Source of the DNA: Candidatus Aminicenantes bacterium JdFR-78
GTDB taxonomy: Bacteria; Acidobacteriota; Aminicenantia; JdFR-78
Direction: 5' to 3'
NCBI GenBank assembly: GCA_002010665.1
Contig: MTON01000005.1
Coordinates: forward strand, 1,116-65,115
DNA length: 64,000 nucleotides
Positions 42,848 to 53,052 of the stretch are shown one piece after another. Under the pieces are notes generated by a model. It saw only the letters and a program-made list of their open reading frames with translations, was not told where the DNA came from and did not search any database. The position numbers and the translations under genes were made by a program. Within the stretch, counting starts at the first letter, position 1; each line of letters begins with the position of its first letter.

Positions 42848-44050
42848 CTAATGTCCCTCTTCAAACTTTGACTTTTCAAGTTCTGATAGTAAAAGAAAAT
42901 TTCCCTGAGTGACAACCACCTCTCCTTCCCTTAGTCCATCAATAACTTCAATCCATCCATTGTATTTGAGTCCTGTGATTATCTCTCTGCGATGATATTC
43001 TCCTGGTTTTTTCTCCACGAATACAATTGTTGTATTTGTACGGGATAAAACCGCTTCCTTTGGAACAGCTAAAACATCTCTCCTCTCCATCACTGGAATT
43101 TCTACTCTGGCAAACATTCCTGGTTCAAGGAGTCCTTCTTGATTTGGAACTTCTATATACACTTTAATTGTTCGAGAATTTTTATCCATAATATCTGAAA
43201 TATAAAATATTTTACCGATGAATTCTCTATCTGGATAAGCCTTTACAGATATATGAGCTCTTTTTGCCTTAAAAACTTTCGCAAGATCCTTTTCATATAT
43301 ATCTGCTACAACCCATACCTTGGAGAGATCAGCGATGAGATAAATATCTTTTGTTGATTCCACAAATTCTCCTTTTGCAAGGTGCATCTCCACAATTGTC
43401 CCGGCAATAGGACTTCTAATAGGGAATTGTGTTATCTCAGCCCCGTTTTCACTCTCAATTCTGGATAAATCTTCATCTGTTAACCCCAAGAAATGAAGTC
43501 GTCTTTCAGCCACCATTAATTCAGCTTGAGCTTTTTTATATATTCTCTCAGCCTCTAATAATTCTGTTTCCGTGGTAATTCTCGCTTCCTCAAATAACCG
43601 TTTTTCCCTCTCATAGTTCTTCTTTGCAATCTCCATTTCTTTTTTCGCTTTAAGATACTCTGACTTTGCCTCTCCAAATTCTGTGCTGTCCAGAATGGCT
43701 AATAATTCATTTTTCCGGACAGGGTCTCCAAGAACTTTATAAATTGTCTTAACAATCCCAGAAACAACAGGGACAATATGTGCTACCTGATACTCATTAA
43801 AGGTGACTTCTCCGGTTACCCTAATAGTCTCATAAAGGGTTTGTCTTTTCACGGAAGAGGTGGAAATGCCAGCAGATTTAATCTGCTCTTCTGTTAAAAA
43901 TATGATATTATTTTTGTGTGCCTTGGGAGGATCCTGCTGATTTTCCAGAGATTTATTCTGATTTTTAATTTTTAAAAATTGAATAAAAAGCAGGATTAAA
44001 ATTAAACTTAAAATACCACTCCCAATAATTAAAATTTTTTTCTTTCTCAT
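42848..44050 (-). CDS. RND efflux periplasmic adaptor (CusB/CzcB-like)
   Basis: 400-residue membrane-fusion protein anchored by one N-terminal helix (IIGSGILSLILILLFIQFL). It has the expected lipoyl, alpha-helical hairpin (residues ~150-195, rich in E and K), and beta-barrel domains, with VPKEAVL near the end. No extended His/Met-rich N-terminus, as in some CusB proteins, is present. It overlaps the tolC-like gene by 4 nt and precedes the pump gene by 25 nt. Confidence 0.93.
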   Translation of the reverse strand: MRKKKILIIGSGILSLILILLFIQFLKIKNQNKSLENQQDPPKAHKNNIIFLTEEQIKSAGISTSSVKRQTLYETIRVTGEVTFNEYQVAHIVPVVSGIVKTIYKVLGDPVRKNELLAILDSTEFGEAKSEYLKAKKEMEIAKKNYEREKRLFEEARITTETELLEAERIYKKAQAELMVAERRLHFLGLTDEDLSRIESENGAEITQFPIRSPIAGTIVEMHLAKGEFVESTKDIYLIADLSKVWVVADIYEKDLAKVFKAKRAHISVKAYPDREFIGKIFYISDIMDKNSRTIKVYIEVPNQEGLLEPGMFARVEIPVMERRDVLAVPKEAVLSRTNTTIVFVEKKPGEYHRREIITGLKYNGWIEVIDGLREGEVVVTQGNFLLLSELEKSKFEEGH

Positions 44051-45414
44051 GGGTTCCTCCTATCTTCTCCTATTTCAATTAATGCTCTCCCAATAAGCTT
44101 TTCCAATTCAGCAGCAGAATCATTCAAAGATTCAATGACTTCTATATAAATTTCTTGGGTTTCAGCTAGAGTTCTTTGAGCATCTAATAAGTCGAGATAT
44201 GATAATTTGCCTTGTTCAAAACCCTTTCTTACTAAATCCAATGATTTTTTAGCTTCAGGCAATATAATTTCTTGATATTTTTTTATTTGATTTAAAGTTC
44301 GACTAAAAACAGTTAATTTTTCATCAAGCTCCAGCAGAATATCATTTTCCCTTGCCTTGTAGTCTGTCTCTGCTTTTCTTATATTAAGAAGCGCCTCAAT
44401 AATTTTTCCCTGATTCAAATTAAAAATAGGTATAGGAATTCCAATACTGAATTCCGCTATATCTTCCTTTACAAGAGTATCCTTTCCATAGCCCACACGA
44501 AATTCAATATCTGGTATTCGCTGTACTTTAGCAAGCTTTAATTTTAACTGCGCAAGTTCTTTCTCTTTTTTCTGAGCTAATAGACCCGGATGTGTCTTTA
44601 AAACTATTTTCACTAAGTCTTCTTTCAAAAGCTTAGGAAAAGAATCCCTTAATCTCCCTCTATATTCTTTAATTTTTAATTTTGGTAATCCTATTATTGT
44701 CTTCAACCGTTTTTCTGCAATAGAAAATTTTGCCTTAGCATTAAATAATTTCACTTTTGCTCTCTCTAATTCAATTCGTGCCTTAATAAGCTCTGTTTGA
44801 GGTGCTACACCTGCATCAAATCTCTTTTTTATACTATCGAATAGACTCTGTGCTATCTCAACCGTTCGCCTTGCTACTTCTACTTTTTGTTGAGTTGCCA
44901 GTACCCCATAGAAAGCTTTCTTTATCTCAGCAATAACCTCCCGGAATTTCTCTTCATATTTTAGAGCAACAATTTCCTTCTCTATTTGAGCAACTTTTGT
45001 TCTCAGCGCTATTTTTCCTCCTATTAAAACTTCTTGACTCAGGCTTACTATATTTTTACTTTTTTGAAAGCCGAGATTCTCTCGAGGAATATCTTCAGCT
45101 TCAAACTCTATATGAGGATTTGGCCAGAGTCTTGATTGAATAATTCTTGCCTCTGCAATACCTATTTGTTTTCTGAGTGAAATTAATTCAGGATTAAATT
45201 TCAACGCAAGAGAAATTGCTTCATCGAGTGTGATAGAATCATCCCTACCTTTCTCCTCAATATATTGATAATTAGTATTCTTGGAAATCAATAAATCGAC
45301 TTCAGGTTCTTGTAAATAATTTTTAAAATTTTTTGTATTATAAGAAACACATCCCCAAATGAGGCTAAATATAGATATTCCAACAATCCAGATTAATAGT
45401 TGACATTTCCTCAT
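44047..45414 (-). CDS. TolC-family outer membrane efflux lipoprotein
   Basis: 455 residues forming the outer-membrane exit duct. The signal sequence ends in a lipobox (LIWGC), so the mature protein should be lipidated at Cys22. Two OEP domains each with long coiled helices are visible, e.g. SLALKFNPELISLRKQ and FDAGVAPQTELIKAR in repeat one and FEQGKLSYLDLLDAQRTL in repeat two. It shares ATGA with the adaptor gene. AAGGAG precedes the ATG. Confidence 0.93.
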   Translation of the reverse strand: MRKCQLLIWIVGISIFSLIWGCVSYNTKNFKNYLQEPEVDLLISKNTNYQYIEEKGRDDSITLDEAISLALKFNPELISLRKQIGIAEARIIQSRLWPNPHIEFEAEDIPRENLGFQKSKNIVSLSQEVLIGGKIALRTKVAQIEKEIVALKYEEKFREVIAEIKKAFYGVLATQQKVEVARRTVEIAQSLFDSIKKRFDAGVAPQTELIKARIELERAKVKLFNAKAKFSIAEKRLKTIIGLPKLKIKEYRGRLRDSFPKLLKEDLVKIVLKTHPGLLAQKKEKELAQLKLKLAKVQRIPDIEFRVGYGKDTLVKEDIAEFSIGIPIPIFNLNQGKIIEALLNIRKAETDYKARENDILLELDEKLTVFSRTLNQIKKYQEIILPEAKKSLDLVRKGFEQGKLSYLDLLDAQRTLAETQEIYIEVIESLNDSAAELEKLIGRALIEIGEDRRNP

Positions 45415-45547: not shown

Positions 45548-45862
45548 TTAGCTTAGGCGAGGGGGGCGAAAAATATCTCTGACATTGCCCCCAAAAATGG
45601 ACCTTTGAATGCTCAGTAGAAGATATGTATGAAGAATTAAACCCGATAATAATATGGGATTAAATATTATAGGAGATGAGTGAAAAATGCATTCACAGCA
45701 GGTGTGGGCATTTGAGCTCTTACAATTTCCAAATCCCTTTTTATAGAAAATCAGGGAATGAAAGGAAAATAAAGCTGGATGAAACTGAGCTAATATAGAA
45801 ATTAAAAGGATAAGGGAAAAAAATCTATTTCTTCTACTCTGCTTTTTTGTAGTGAATAACAT
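45548..45862 (-). CDS. Small Cys-rich secreted or membrane protein in the metal island
   Basis: 104 residues from the ATG at 45862. A hydrophobic N-terminal segment (FFSLILLISILAQFHPALFSF) is followed by a short soluble loop with Cys and His (HTCCECIFH), a second hydrophobic stretch, and a basic end IFRPPRLS. Small proteins of this shape often precede czc/cus pump genes, but I cannot name a family. The ribosome site is weak, and the 3' end can form a GC hairpin (GGGGGC 45562-45567 with GCCCCC 45587-45592), so a structured-RNA reading is a possible alternative. Confidence 0.5.
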   Translation of the reverse strand: MLFTTKKQSRRNRFFSLILLISILAQFHPALFSFHSLIFYKKGFGNCKSSNAHTCCECIFHSSPIIFNPILLSGLILHTYLLLSIQRSIFGGNVRDIFRPPRLS

Positions 45863-45901
45863 CTTTTCCCAGCTCAAATTGGAATATTTTTTATATTATA
45901 A

Positions 45902-46852
45902 CTATTTGAATTTGTCAAACTTAATTTTCTCCAGACTTTCTTTTCCATAAATATCTGATTCTAAAAGAGGAATATACCCTATTATCATTTCTTTGAATTT
46001 AGTCTTTATCTCATCCAGGTTTTTCTTCTGAATTTCTTTTCTTTTGGAAAAAAATTTACTGTTAATTTTAGTCAATATTCTATTAATGATAATTCCATCA
46101 ACTTCTATTCCATGCTTTTTCAATAAAGAAATAGCATCCGCAGTCTCTAATATAGACAATCTCTCAGCATCTAATACAAATATAATACAGCTGTTTTTTT
46201 TATTTTGTAAATAACTTCTGACCAGAAGGAACTTCTCTCTTCTCTTTTTTAATAGTTCAATCAAAGGATCACGCTCTATTTTTTTTCGCAGAGACTCGTC
46301 CACTTTTGACGCCATTTTCATTAAATTTATAACTTGTAATCTCCTTTCAATCAATCTTTCAATCCATGACTCTAACAATTCCGGGAATGTAAAAAGACGA
46401 AGGGTATGACCAGTGGGAGCAGTATCAAAAACAATTTTATCATAGGGATTGCCAATTTTATCCATAATCTCAATGAATTTATCGAAAATAGCAGACTCTT
46501 CCACCCCGGGAGAAAGAAAAGCTGTATCAATCTGTTTTTTAATTTCTTCTACTATAACACTGCTCACAACTTCTTTTATTGATTCTTTTATCTTTTTTAT
46601 ATATTTCCTTGCTTCCTTTTTAGGATCTATTTCAATTGCCCATAAATTTTCCTCTATTTTTATTTCTTTTGAGCCAATTTTTCTTTCAAATATATGAGAA
46701 AGGGAATGAGCTGGATCAGTTGAAACAAGAAGAATTTTAAATCCCTTTCGAGCTAAATTTAGAGCAAAACTTGCACTACAGGTTGTTTTACCTGAACCTC
46801 CTTTTCCAGCAAAAAAAATAAATTTCTTAGTAAGTATCTTTTCATTTGTCAT
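45902..46852 (-). CDS. ArsA/Get3-family ATPase
   Basis: 316-residue cytosolic ATPase of the ArsA/Get3 branch. Motifs: P-loop GKGGSGKTT (residues 16-24), the signature STDPAHS, the switch segment DTAPTGHTLRL, and VLDAER. It has one nucleotide-binding domain, so it should work as a homodimer. It lacks the Cys triad of arsenite-binding ArsA, and no arsB or arsD is near, so arsenite transport is not supported. It lies between the P-type ATPase region and the RND pump, directly after a 94-residue protein ending in Cys-Cys that probably works with it. Confidence 0.88.
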   Translation of the reverse strand: MTNEKILTKKFIFFAGKGGSGKTTCSASFALNLARKGFKILLVSTDPAHSLSHIFERKIGSKEIKIEENLWAIEIDPKKEARKYIKKIKESIKEVVSSVIVEEIKKQIDTAFLSPGVEESAIFDKFIEIMDKIGNPYDKIVFDTAPTGHTLRLFTFPELLESWIERLIERRLQVINLMKMASKVDESLRKKIERDPLIELLKKRREKFLLVRSYLQNKKNSCIIFVLDAERLSILETADAISLLKKHGIEVDGIIINRILTKINSKFFSKRKEIQKKNLDEIKTKFKEMIIGYIPLLESDIYGKESLEKIKFDKFK

Positions 46853-46861
46853 TTTTAAAGA

Positions 46862-47146
46862 CTAACAACAGAAATCATACTGACCAGCTTTTTCAGCAAC
46901 AATGCTTTTTCTTATTGATATTCTCTTCTCCCAGCTTTCAAGCTCTTCTACAAAAAGAGGTAGAAATTCCAGAGCAAAGTAAGAAAAAGGATTTGGTATA
47001 CCAAGAAAATCTCCAAAAAGAAGAAGCATAAAATCATCATTGAGATCAGATGCCTCTTTACGAATAATGCTCGATGCTTTTACTTTAAAAGCTCCTTCCA
47101 GAAAGTCAGATATAACGGCCAATGAATGTTTAAACTTATTTTTCAT
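46862..47146 (-). CDS. 94-residue protein ending in Cys-Cys, linked to ArsA-like ATPase
   Basis: Small soluble alpha-helical protein. It contains a well-formed core (FGDFLGIPNPFSYFALEFLPL) and ends KAGQYDFCC, with Cys-Cys as the last two residues and the only cysteines in the protein. This may be the family NCBI names cory-CC-star, which I recall as adjacent to ArsA-type ATPases; the name needs checking. It sits 1 nt after the P-type ATPase stop and 9 nt before the ArsA-like start. A role handing soft metal ions to or from the ATPase is inference. Confidence 0.8.
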   Translation of the reverse strand: MKNKFKHSLAVISDFLEGAFKVKASSIIRKEASDLNDDFMLLLFGDFLGIPNPFSYFALEFLPLFVEELESWEKRISIRKSIVAEKAGQYDFCC

Positions 47147-47147
47147 T

Positions 47148-49484
47148 TTATCTTTTAAATTTAAATAATCTCATTCCATTAAATATTACCATAAGAGAAG
47201 CTCCCATGTCTGCAAAAACAGCCATCCATAATGTAGCTAATCCTGGTACAGCTAAAGTCAGAAATATCGCTTTAATAAATAAAGCAATAAATATATTTTC
47301 TTTAATAATCCAAAGAGCTTTTCTTCCGAGTCTAATTACAAATGGTATTCCAGATAAATCATCTGACATAAGAGCAATATCCGCTGTTTCTAATGCAGCA
47401 TCTGTTCCAGCTGTTCCCATTGCAATTCCTAAAGTAGAAGCAGCCAAAGCTGGAGCATCATTTACTCCATCTCCTACCATTGCAACCTTATCATATTTTT
47501 TCAAAAAATATTGAATAGCTCCAACCTTATCCTGGGGAAGAAGTTCAGCCTTAAACTCATCAATCCCCAACTCTTTAGCAATCGCCTTTGCAGTTCCTTT
47601 ATTATCACCTGTAAGCATTGCGATTCTCTGAATCCCGATTTTACGAAGTTTATCTAAGGTGGGTTTACAATTTTCTCTTATTGTATCAGATATTACTATA
47701 ATTCCTAATATCTCTTTGGAACTACCTAAAATAACAACAGTTTTACTTTCTTTTTCAAGTTCTTCCATTTTTTCATCTAACTCAGGAGTACAAAATTTGT
47801 TTTCTTCAAAAAGTCGATGACTTCCTATATAAAAATATTCTTCACCAATCTTGGCCATTGCTCCTTTGCCTGTAATAGCCTTAAAATTTATAGGCTCTGG
47901 AATTTCTAATTTCCATTCTTTTGCTTTATTTAAAATAGCCTGGGCTAAATGATGTTCTGAACGAGATTCTATACCTGCAGCTATTTTTAATACTTCTTCT
48001 TTTTTATAATTATTTAAAGGAATTACATCCAATACTTCAGGTTTCCCTTTAGTTAGAGTGCCTGTTTTATCAAAAACCAGAACTTTCAATTTCCCTGCAT
48101 TCTCTAAATGAACTCCACCTTTAATTAATACCCCTTTTCTTGCTGCCTGAGCTAATCCTGCTACAATGGTAACTGGCGTAGATATCACTAAAGCACATGG
48201 ACAGGATATAACCAAAAGAACTAAAGCTCTATAAATCCATACTGTAAAAGGTTGATTAAAAATAAACACAGGGATTATTGCAGTTAACAATGCTCCTGTA
48301 ACTACACTTGGAATATAGTATTTTGCGAATTTGTCAACAAAACTCTGAGAAGGAGCCTTTTGAGCCTGAGCCTCCTCAACCATATGTATAATTCGAGCTA
48401 ATGTAGTATCCTTTGCAGAGTGCGTAACCTTTACTTCTAAAAAGCCATTTTGATTAATGGTCCCTGCAAATACAATGTCACCTTTCTTTTTTTCTATTGG
48501 CATTGACTCACCAGTTATTGGAGCTTGATTAACATATGAATTTCCTTTAATAACCTTACCATCTAAAGGAATTTTTTCTCCAGGTTTAATTACAATTATT
48601 TCTCCAATTTTTACTAAATTAACATCAAGTTCAATTTCTTTTCCATCTCTTTTCACAAGAGCTTTTGGAGGAGAAAGTTCCATTAAAGAGCGGATGGCAT
48701 GCCTCGCTCTATCCATGGAATAATTTTCCAATAATTGCGCTATTGAAAAAAGCACAACTACAACCGAGGCCTCTACCCATTCTCCTATAAAAGCTGCGCC
48801 AATTACTGCTATTGTCATTAAAAAATTCATATCAAGACTGAGGGTGCGAAGAGCAGCTATACCCTTACGTGCTATAAAAAATCCTCCAGTTATAATTGCT
48901 GTGACAAAGACTGGAATAACAATATTTTGACTAATTTCTAATCTTGAAAGGATTATGCCGGTAACAGTTAAAATTCCTGCAATAATAGTTGTAATTAAAT
49001 GTTTCCTTCTTTCCCAAAACGACAATTCCTCTTTTGACTGCCTTTTTATACTCGCTTTCATCCCGGTCTGATTTATCGAATTTATTATTTCAGTGGGCTT
49101 TAGTAGCTTAGAATCATATTTAATTTCTATTTCTTGTGTAACTAAATAAAATTTCATATCTTTTATGCCCTGTAGATTTTTCAACTTTTTCTCTATAATT
49201 TTAGTTTCTTCAGAGCAGTCCATTCCTTCGATGTATAGGCGAAGAGAACTTATTTTTTCTTTATGTTCAACAGAATAACCCAGTTTTTTTATAGCTTTTT
49301 CTACATTTTTTTTATTAAATCGAGAGGAATCAACTTCAATTTTTATAGTGGAATTTATAAACGAGACCTGTGCAGACTTTACACCCTTGATCTTTGAAAC
49401 TGCTTTCTCTATTTTTATAGCACAATCCGCACAATCGATTCCTTTAATTTTTAACTCAATTTCTTTCTTGCCTTTTGTGTTCAT
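47148..49484 (-). CDS. cadA: Zn/Cd/Pb-transporting P-type ATPase (CadA/ZntA type)
   Basis: 778-residue inner-membrane P1B-type ATPase exporting divalent soft metals. There are two N-terminal HMA domains: the first with a full C-x2-C (GIDCADC, Cys18/Cys21), the second with the CadA-like GMDCSEE. The transport motif is SCPCALV, the phosphorylated Asp is in DKTGTLT, and the hinge is GDGVNDAPAL. TM7 Lys (FIKAIFLT) and TM8 Asp (ADMGASL) are the residues that mark the Zn/Cd/Pb subgroup. It follows the ArsR repressor with a SmtB-type operator in the 54-nt gap. Confidence 0.95.
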   Translation of the reverse strand: MNTKGKKEIELKIKGIDCADCAIKIEKAVSKIKGVKSAQVSFINSTIKIEVDSSRFNKKNVEKAIKKLGYSVEHKEKISSLRLYIEGMDCSEETKIIEKKLKNLQGIKDMKFYLVTQEIEIKYDSKLLKPTEIINSINQTGMKASIKRQSKEELSFWERRKHLITTIIAGILTVTGIILSRLEISQNIVIPVFVTAIITGGFFIARKGIAALRTLSLDMNFLMTIAVIGAAFIGEWVEASVVVVLFSIAQLLENYSMDRARHAIRSLMELSPPKALVKRDGKEIELDVNLVKIGEIIVIKPGEKIPLDGKVIKGNSYVNQAPITGESMPIEKKKGDIVFAGTINQNGFLEVKVTHSAKDTTLARIIHMVEEAQAQKAPSQSFVDKFAKYYIPSVVTGALLTAIIPVFIFNQPFTVWIYRALVLLVISCPCALVISTPVTIVAGLAQAARKGVLIKGGVHLENAGKLKVLVFDKTGTLTKGKPEVLDVIPLNNYKKEEVLKIAAGIESRSEHHLAQAILNKAKEWKLEIPEPINFKAITGKGAMAKIGEEYFYIGSHRLFEENKFCTPELDEKMEELEKESKTVVILGSSKEILGIIVISDTIRENCKPTLDKLRKIGIQRIAMLTGDNKGTAKAIAKELGIDEFKAELLPQDKVGAIQYFLKKYDKVAMVGDGVNDAPALAASTLGIAMGTAGTDAALETADIALMSDDLSGIPFVIRLGRKALWIIKENIFIALFIKAIFLTLAVPGLATLWMAVFADMGASLMVIFNGMRLFKFKR

Positions 49485-49538: not shown

Positions 49539-49940
49539 TCATGGACTTTCCTCCACATGCTCCAATCCTTGATTGAATAAATCCTCAATGTGTTTATCTG
49601 CAAGAGAATAATAAGCAACTTTACCATCTTTTCTATATTTTACTATTTTCAAATTTCTTAAAATTCTTAATTGATGAGAAATAGCAGAACTGCTCACCCC
49701 TATAAGATTTGCTAAATCACAAACGCATAATTCCTCCTTTAACAATGCAAAAATAATTTTAACGCGCGTTGGATCAGATAAAGCACCAAAGATTTCAGCT
49801 AAGCTAGTTATAACCCTTTCAGGTTTCATAATTTTTTTAATTCTATCAACTTTAGCTTTATTTATGGAAACAACTTCACAAACTGCATTACTGGAACTGG
49901 TTTTTTCTTTTGTAAAATTATTATGTGAATAATTGTTCAT
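49539..49940 (-). CDS. ArsR/SmtB-family metal repressor (CadC-like)
   Basis: 133-residue winged-helix repressor released from DNA by Cd, Pb or Zn. It has the alpha3 metal motif ELCVCDL and an N-terminal Cys (SNAVCEV), together matching the alpha3N site of CadC. The recognition helix is in VSSSAISHQLRIL, and C-terminal acidic/His residues (DKHIEDL...EHVEE) could form the alpha5 site. Its first codons lie inside a second SmtB-type operator (49926-49939), implying direct autorepression. It directly precedes cadA. Confidence 0.93.
   Translation of the reverse strand: MNNYSHNNFTKEKTSSSNAVCEVVSINKAKVDRIKKIMKPERVITSLAEIFGALSDPTRVKIIFALLKEELCVCDLANLIGVSSSAISHQLRILRNLKIVKYRKDGKVAYYSLADKHIEDLFNQGLEHVEESP
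49926..49939. promoter_or_regulatory. SmtB/CzrA-type operator overlapping the arsR-family start codon
   Basis: Minus-strand reading TGAACA-AT-TATTCA, where TGA belongs to the ATG start codon plus the next base. Repressor bound here would block both transcription and access to the start codon. It matches the site before cadA in both half-sites. Confidence 0.7.
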
Positions 49941-52773: not shown

Positions 52774-53052
52774 TTATTTAGCAAATTTATAAATTACATC
52801 CATTAAATTTTTATAAGTTTCATCAGCTTTTTGAGGGTCCTTTGAGCGAATAGCTTCAGTTACGCATGTCTCAAGATAATTCCTCATAATAACTTTACCA
52901 ACTCCTCTTAAAGCCTCATGAATTGAAGAAATCTGCGTTAAAATTTCAATACAAGGCCTTTCTGACTCAACCATTTTTCTTATCCCTGAAAGTTGCCCTT
53001 CTATTTTATTTAATCGAGAAATGATCTCTTTTCTTCTCTCCTCATTTATCAT
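52774..53052 (-). CDS. CsoR/RcnR/FrmR-family transcriptional repressor
   Basis: 92-residue all-helical repressor that releases DNA on binding metal or a reactive small molecule. Conserved features are the N-terminal RRKEIISRLNKIEGQL helix and RPCIEILTQI. Aligned to CsoR's Cys-His-Cys copper site, Cys34 and Cys63 are kept but the His becomes Tyr59 (RNYLETC); His45 is present nearby. So copper sensing exactly like CsoR is not certain. A palindromic operator lies directly upstream (53071-53093). It is the first gene of the metal island, 38 nt before the receptor gene. Confidence 0.92.
   Translation of the reverse strand: MINEERRKEIISRLNKIEGQLSGIRKMVESERPCIEILTQISSIHEALRGVGKVIMRNYLETCVTEAIRSKDPQKADETYKNLMDVIYKFAK

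Follow-up and report, generated by a model that had tools for sequence, protein, structure and literature searches.

Why should a protein of fewer than a hundred residues that ends in Cys-Cys, together with an ArsA/Get3-like ATPase, stand in the middle of a metal-efflux operon? The question is raised by a stretch of 64,000 nucleotides (hereafter the window) from the genome of Candidatus Aminicenantes bacterium JdFR-78. It bears on the role of the small partners of the transporter CstA, a question that dates from the finding that pyruvate uptake requires YbdD; with a copy of the module in a metal operon, the function of the CC tail could be read out as metal tolerance. Our analysis suggests that the pair is a reusable helper module.

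Results

Gene content and origin of the operon

The genes concerned are listed in Table 1. On one strand, an ArsR-type gene and the P-type ATPase gene lie ahead of the pair and the RND efflux set lies behind it. The small gene begins with ATG and is separated from the P-type ATPase gene by 1 nt, and the ArsA-like ATG follows 9 nt past the small-gene stop; the coordinates confirm both gaps as given in the first-pass annotation of this DNA. A terminator scan returned a single terminator-like stem (47190-47208), inside the end of the P-type ATPase gene, fewer than the 2.5 that shuffled sequences give on average. Small gene, ArsA and P-type ATPase are probably co-transcribed.

Table 1. Features of the pair and of the surrounding metal genes in the window (positions counted from its first nucleotide).
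Feature	Position	Strand	Basis
CzcA-like RND efflux pump, 1031 aa	39727..42822	-	ORF; 50% identity to G019 copy
CzcB-like periplasmic adaptor	42848..44050	-	ORF, position, tblastn match to G019 gene order
CzcC-like outer-membrane efflux protein	44047..45414	-	PF02321, 194.5 bits
109-aa orphan with CCEC cluster, between ArsA and CzcC	45548..45877	-	ORF
ArsA/Get3/TRC40-type ATPase, single-domain, 316 aa, P-loop and switch motifs intact	45902..46852	-	PF02374, TIGR00345, AF2, fold match
Small CC-tailed protein, 94 aa; divergent cory-CC-star/CstX relative	46862..47146	-	ORF and NF041419 match
Terminal Cys-Cys codons TGT TGT and stop TAG	46862..46870	-	Sequence
Heavy-metal P-type ATPase, Zn/Cd (CadA/ZntA) type, N-terminal HMA domains	47148..49484	-	TIGR01525, TIGR01512, PF00403
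ArsR/SmtB-family metalloregulator, ELCVCDL motif	49539..49940	-	NF033788, 97.1 bits (cut-off 55)
TonB-dependent receptor, 909 aa	50006-52735	-	PF00593, PF07715, PF00403
CsoR/RcnR-type metal-sensitive repressor	52774-53052	-	PF02583

The P-type ATPase scores above the cut-offs of TIGR01525 (629.5 bits) and TIGR01512 (535.2 bits, cut-off 313.5) and contains CPC and DMGA motifs, which we take to support this assignment. Elsewhere in the same genome, a tandem of a second and a third P-type ATPase signal occupies G000:C5 119085-121388 and the sequence that follows (L271). Upstream of the ArsR gene, the TonB-dependent receptor carries its HMA domains C-terminally, behind the beta-barrel, and is thus an outer-membrane receptor with metal-binding domains; the CsoR/RcnR-type gene heads the same gene run as the metal-efflux operon. 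Profile searches gave no family match for the CCEC orphan. Cys/His-rich proteins of ~100 aa, not demonstrably related to the orphan, occupy the same place behind ArsA at five other loci (L083, L085, L049, L081, L121).

Matches to the P-type ATPase at 1e-100 or better occur in 72 of 141 genomes of the class. In its nearest complete relative (G019, 61%) the genes run ArsR, orphan, CzcC, CzcB, CzcA, a PII-like gene (assigned by eye) and P-type ATPase, with no small gene or ArsA beside the latter; the pair is also missing from the short contig of G432, whose P-type ATPase matches at 63%. Because G019 has the czc genes and ArsR without the pair, the pair was either added in the lineage of the window or lost in G019. 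Among the loci read, the window is the single case in which a P-type ATPase adjoins the pair, at a distance of 1 nt, and the only one in which the pair lies inside a metal-efflux operon; at L104 a P-type ATPase gene lies ~4 kb from the pair on the other strand. The pair's place in a metal-efflux operon looks new.

The small CC-tailed protein

Cysteines occur in the small protein at positions 93 and 94 only, the last two of its 94 residues, just as the first-pass annotation had it. The sole family matched is NF041419 (cory-CC-star; 59.4 bits, E 2.6e-16, profile 3-74 of 80), at a score that falls short of the curated cut-off of 80 bits, and a Pfam scan returned nothing over cut-off, PF04328 included. 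The protein retains the CC, though the preceding stretch has diverged and is five residues longer. Judged by sequence, it is a divergent relative of cory-CC-star. That family, in turn, very probably corresponds to the protein called "CstX" in the literature on CstA-CstX-ArsA operons, an identification made from size, neighbours and tandem cases, with CstX known here by description and not by sequence. An AF2 model of low confidence (pLDDT 75.8, pTM 0.35) has helices at 2-47 and 53-75 followed by a tail that is loose in the model (last block ~51 pLDDT). Hydrophobicity reaches its maximum mid-protein, at 1.23 over 19 residues, which is weak for the single membrane helix that the available text of Castillo and Saier 2010 (PMC2963123) assigns to CstX. 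The small family showed no resemblance to solved structures at E up to 1, and a literature search for "cory-CC-star" found no experiment on any member.

The ArsA-like partner

The ATPase matches PF02374 (287 bits) and TIGR00345 (286.8 bits, cut-off 135 exceeded), and the best fold match of its AF2 model (pLDDT 89.5) is 3zq6, an archaeal TRC40 (Z 32.2, rmsd 3.1, 297 aligned). By profile matches and modelled fold, it belongs to the Get3/TRC40/ArsA superfamily; the ArsA tree has long branches and gives it no firm placement. Comparison with an anti-phage library returned weak P-loop matches only (E 5e-6 and 8e-5). It has a single domain, cysteines at 25 and 222 only and no CxxC, lacks the E. coli triad C113/C172/C422, and scores 157 bits against TIGR04291 (cut-off 650); it does not qualify as an arsenite pump, and the earlier statement that the usual ArsA role does not apply holds. 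According to the accessible part of PMC2963123, absence of the triad is normal in single-domain ArsA homologues. Partner ArsA proteins keep the P-loop and the STDPAH-like and DTAPxGHT motifs. Since 31 of 69 partners are free of cysteine and CxxC is found in 0 of 69, a family-wide relay of metal through ArsA is unlikely.

Distribution of the pair

A scan of a genome collection gave 529 pattern matches and 494 relatives, the best 80 of which were kept; the ranking was by similarity to a query that ends in CC, and the NF041419 profile is likewise of CC type. Within these best 80 of 494, the CC tail is present in 80/80, an ArsA signal lies just behind the small gene in 80/80 (at L063 and L066 the match starts at or within the small-gene end), and CstA is directly upstream in 41/80. 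The second survey comprised 54 CC-type loci of the same phylum as the window, namely 53 from another class, in which 65 of 193 genomes carry a cory gene, plus L041 (G394) from outside the 65-genome list. All 54 have the CC tail and 53 have ArsA beside the small gene, the miss being at a contig end; CstA is beside the small gene in 14, and 40 are not beside it. The suspicion that small protein and ArsA form a real conserved pair is therefore borne out, and their adjacency holds across phyla. The neighbourhood search once proposed for CC proteins and ArsA finds ArsA near universal, but the usual further neighbour is CstA and not a metal gene. Homologues without the terminal cysteines, or without ArsA, had been named as evidence against a metal-carrying partner: the former do exist, yet with ArsA still beside them, and none of the latter turned up where the contig extended far enough to tell.

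Seven of the 142 genomes in the window's own class match: that of the window itself and six others that belong to a single family. These six relatives end in ...EGWA, with ArsA downstream and, in the loci displayed in that direction, CstA upstream. The CC-type small gene is thus found in the window alone among the 142. A second tail-less branch has two tandem small genes ending LHGV, DMEA or DAMF, then ArsA copies, with CstA upstream. At L053, L054 and L055, CstA is followed by two tandem CC-less small genes and two ArsA genes that differ from each other, so that the module seems to be heteromeric there. In the phylum sample, 16 of 396 genomes exceed the NF041419 cut-off, all with CC-ending proteins, and 17 of the 36 matching genomes, window included, are of CC type, the rest being CC-less in the loci read (the weak matches G131, G190 and G246 lie outside this reading). 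From these endings and neighbours, the CC tail marks one large branch and the ArsA link the whole family. ArsA and CstA persist in the CC-less branches, so the module as such can do without the thiols; within its own branch the tail is under strong constraint. A plasmid search with the window protein gave no match. A canonical member retrieved six plasmid records; three were opened, all CstA-linked, and 3/3 regions are annotated with carbon starvation protein A, cory-CC-star protein and ArsA family ATPase, one of them with an additional small gene. Scans that used one window protein at a time as query were negative.

The link to CstA extends beyond direct neighbourhood. CstA is present in 36/36 small-gene genomes of the phylum sample versus 251/392 overall (the two draws differ by four genomes), and in the other class in 61/65 versus 87/128 (Fisher 1.9e-5, with genomes counted as unrelated). 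Among genomes at least 90% complete the figures are 40/40 versus 58/79 (6e-5, kinship ignored), where 40/40 is derived from the tallies and from the four CstA-less exceptions (G538, G539, G549, G591) all being less complete, at most 82%. CC-type pairs outside CstA operons occur, nearly always in CstA-bearing genomes. The genome of the window has a single CstA, on another contig and with no small gene beside it, a single cory-type gene and no PF04328 partner. In G403, a partial CstA match (C127 14967-15218, minus strand) lies ~130 bases away from the small gene in divergent orientation, perhaps the relic of a former CstA link.

A second family of CC-ending CstA partners

The E. coli gene orders are cstA-ybdD and btsT-yjiX-yjiA. 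YbdD and YjiX have a C-terminal RCC and match PF04328, while the KCU-star selenoprotein family (NF033934) remains below cut-off. Homology between YbdD and cory-CC-star was rejected (hhalign of the two alignments, probability 0.7%). As the two families are not detectably related, the shared CC ending looks convergent, and that both partner families have it suggests that the tail is what does the work. In the accessible text of PMC4607533, Campylobacterales members of the KCU-star/YbdD family end in Cys-Sec, so the tail is likely to be reactive. PF04328 proteins over cut-off occur in 8 of 392 phylum-sample genomes, none of the eight with a cory-type gene, which is no proof of exclusion because chance expects fewer than one shared genome; 8/8 end in CC and 8/8 have a CstA match within ~0.5 kb on the same contig. 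CstA has two unrelated CC-ending small partners, and a SIMIBI NTPase adjoins each of them: ArsA in the case of cory, YjiA in that of YbdD/YjiX. This looks new: among sources available in part, a literature search found no paper joining the cory-CC-star/CstX, CstA and KCU-star/DUF466 facts. Pyruvate uptake falls to 13% in a cstA mutant and 20% in a ybdD mutant, as given in the available part of PMC5847655.

Zinc genes near other pairs

Within the best 80 of 494 relatives, ZnuA/ZnuB lie near 4 and ZnuD near 6 of the 39 scan loci not beside CstA, and Znu genes lie near 0 of the 41 CstA-adjacent ones. Striking as 10/39 versus 0/41 is, an enrichment of zinc genes beside pairs was rejected: the positives fall in few lineages, and ZnuAB was found in 5/40 case regions versus 1/40 control regions (p 0.10; the controls come from nearly the same genome set and are often shorter, with similar totals of 486 kb vs 521 kb). 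ZnuD is the best NCBIfam match for the two proteins tested, at 441 and 641 bits and below the cut-off of 950. All six ZnuD loci belong to one lineage, and five have an operator-like site in the spacer from ArsA to the ZnuD region. This conserved, ATGTTAC...GTAAC-like site is located at L132:9213-9560 (ATAAC), L120:9210-9500, L123:1680-1970, L109:9225-9510 and L114:1640-1925, and the same five spacers contain a conserved stretch with CCTCC/GGAGG stem potential. When ten loci were scanned for Zur boxes, there were two hits with 15 matches, in the ArsA-ZnuD spacer of L132 and elsewhere in L121, neither of them upstream of the small gene; the scanned, AT-rich part of the window had five hits just as weak, which were given no weight. 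Rfam searches of three ZnuD loci returned tmRNA only and no match in the ArsA-ZnuD spacer. The wider zinc link is a lead only.

Discussion

The reading we tentatively favour, a little short of an even chance, takes the pair as a divergent CstX (cory-CC-star)/ArsA transporter-accessory module that has here been put to use in metal efflux, where the P-type ATPase or its metal stress is what it most likely serves. A dimer of the Get3-fold ATPase would bind the helical small protein, and the ArsA ATP cycle would load it onto a membrane transporter or strip it from there. On the transporter, the loose C-terminal dithiol could carry out thiol chemistry, either redox exchange or short-lived metal binding, and the module would thereby assemble, protect or gate the transporter. 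In most genomes this transporter would be CstA, much as E. coli CstA needs YbdD, an unrelated and also CC-ending protein; in the window genome, the module would be wired into the metal-efflux operon. A bolder and more doubtful version holds that a CC-tail protein with a SIMIBI NTPase makes up a service module tied to no particular transporter, one that arose at least twice from small proteins of separate origin and can be moved from one transporter to another; its reactive C-terminal dithiol, handled through nucleotide-driven binding, would here set the thiol or metal state of the Zn/Cd pump.

The same facts admit other explanations. The pair could serve the genome's single CstA in trans, its place in the metal operon being regulatory or accidental. 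This is rather unlikely, although the lone CstA without an adjoining small gene, the lack of PF04328 and the single cory-type gene all fit it, as does the survey of the other class, in which 40/54 loci are not beside CstA and yet 61/65 small-gene genomes have one; spacing of only 1 and 9 nt within a metal operon speaks for genes that are expressed and used together, and the same-class relatives with cory beside CstA are of the tail-less type, unlike the window. Slightly less likely still is a relay in which Zn or Cd rides on the CC tail and ArsA brings about its handover to the P-type ATPase, comparable to the feeding of ArsA by ArsD. The vicinal thiols at a loose end and the metal operon invite it, and YjiA, the functional parallel, prefers Zn(II) and is predicted to take it in cells (available text of PMC7895991). 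The Znu genes near non-CstA loci (4/39 and 6/39 versus 0/41, best 80 of 494) point the same way, but controls weaken them (5/40 versus 1/40, p 0.10), and ZnuD comes down to a single lineage of six loci, five of which have an operator-like site separating it from ArsA. The metal-carrying partner of the first-pass annotation thus stays conceivable inside the window, with its metal-efflux surroundings, and fails as a general rule, where the usual neighbour is CstA and 31/69 ArsA proteins are Cys-free. Because those Cys-free partners exclude a general relay, we prefer nucleotide-driven loading of a dithiol-tailed factor.

P-type ATPases hydrolyse their own ATP. On such a pump an ArsA that energises the transporter, with the small protein as linker, would be an extra motor without evident use, and a module on an ATP-using pump argues against this idea, published by Castillo and Saier 2010; the co-evolving trees of CstA, CstX and ArsA, from which the available text of that paper (PMC2963123) argues, speak for it, and we regard it as very unlikely here. 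Hardly credible is the notion of a bacterial Get3 with the small protein as an ordinary tail-anchored client. The ArsA model does best match Get3 structures, but the protein has no hydrophobic C-terminal anchor, its best 19-residue stretch being in mid-protein, and CxxC is absent in 69/69 partner ArsA proteins; the tail client proposed from the sequence alone is not supported by our data. The favoured accessory module can be set beside several known systems.

Comparison with known systems

A CxxC zinc motif is a trait of Get3. The window ArsA has the fold, P-loop and single domain in common with Get3/TRC40, whereas the CxxC is absent from it and from 69/69 partners and no tail-anchored clients were seen for it. 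In the arsenite system ArsD, a protein with vicinal cysteines, feeds ArsA. The window protein is homologous to that ArsA, but it has one domain and no Cys triad, and no adjoining ArsB or ArsD genes were seen. With the cory-CC-star family the window shares a homologous core, the CC tail, a length of ~85-105 aa and an ArsA directly downstream; the SPL...CC linker of the family is replaced by a longer unrelated stretch and the usual neighbour CstA by a metal P-type ATPase. In the available text of Castillo and Saier 2010 (PMC2963123), the CstA-CstX-ArsA operons combine a CstX of ~90 aa with a single-domain ArsA of ~330 aa, like the 94 and 316 aa of the window, and some have paired CstX and paired ArsA, like the tandem type found here. 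According to the same text CstX is never present without CstA and no arsR occurs in these operons, whereas the window has an ArsR-type gene and no CstA. YbdD and YjiX, finally, are small proteins ending in CC or Cys-Sec beside CstA or BtsT, which resembles the tail and the CstA neighbour of cory-CC-star, and in the btsT case YjiX adjoins a SIMIBI NTPase gene as cory adjoins ArsA; YjiA, however, is a COG0523 GTPase with its own CxCC, while ArsA is an ATPase without one.
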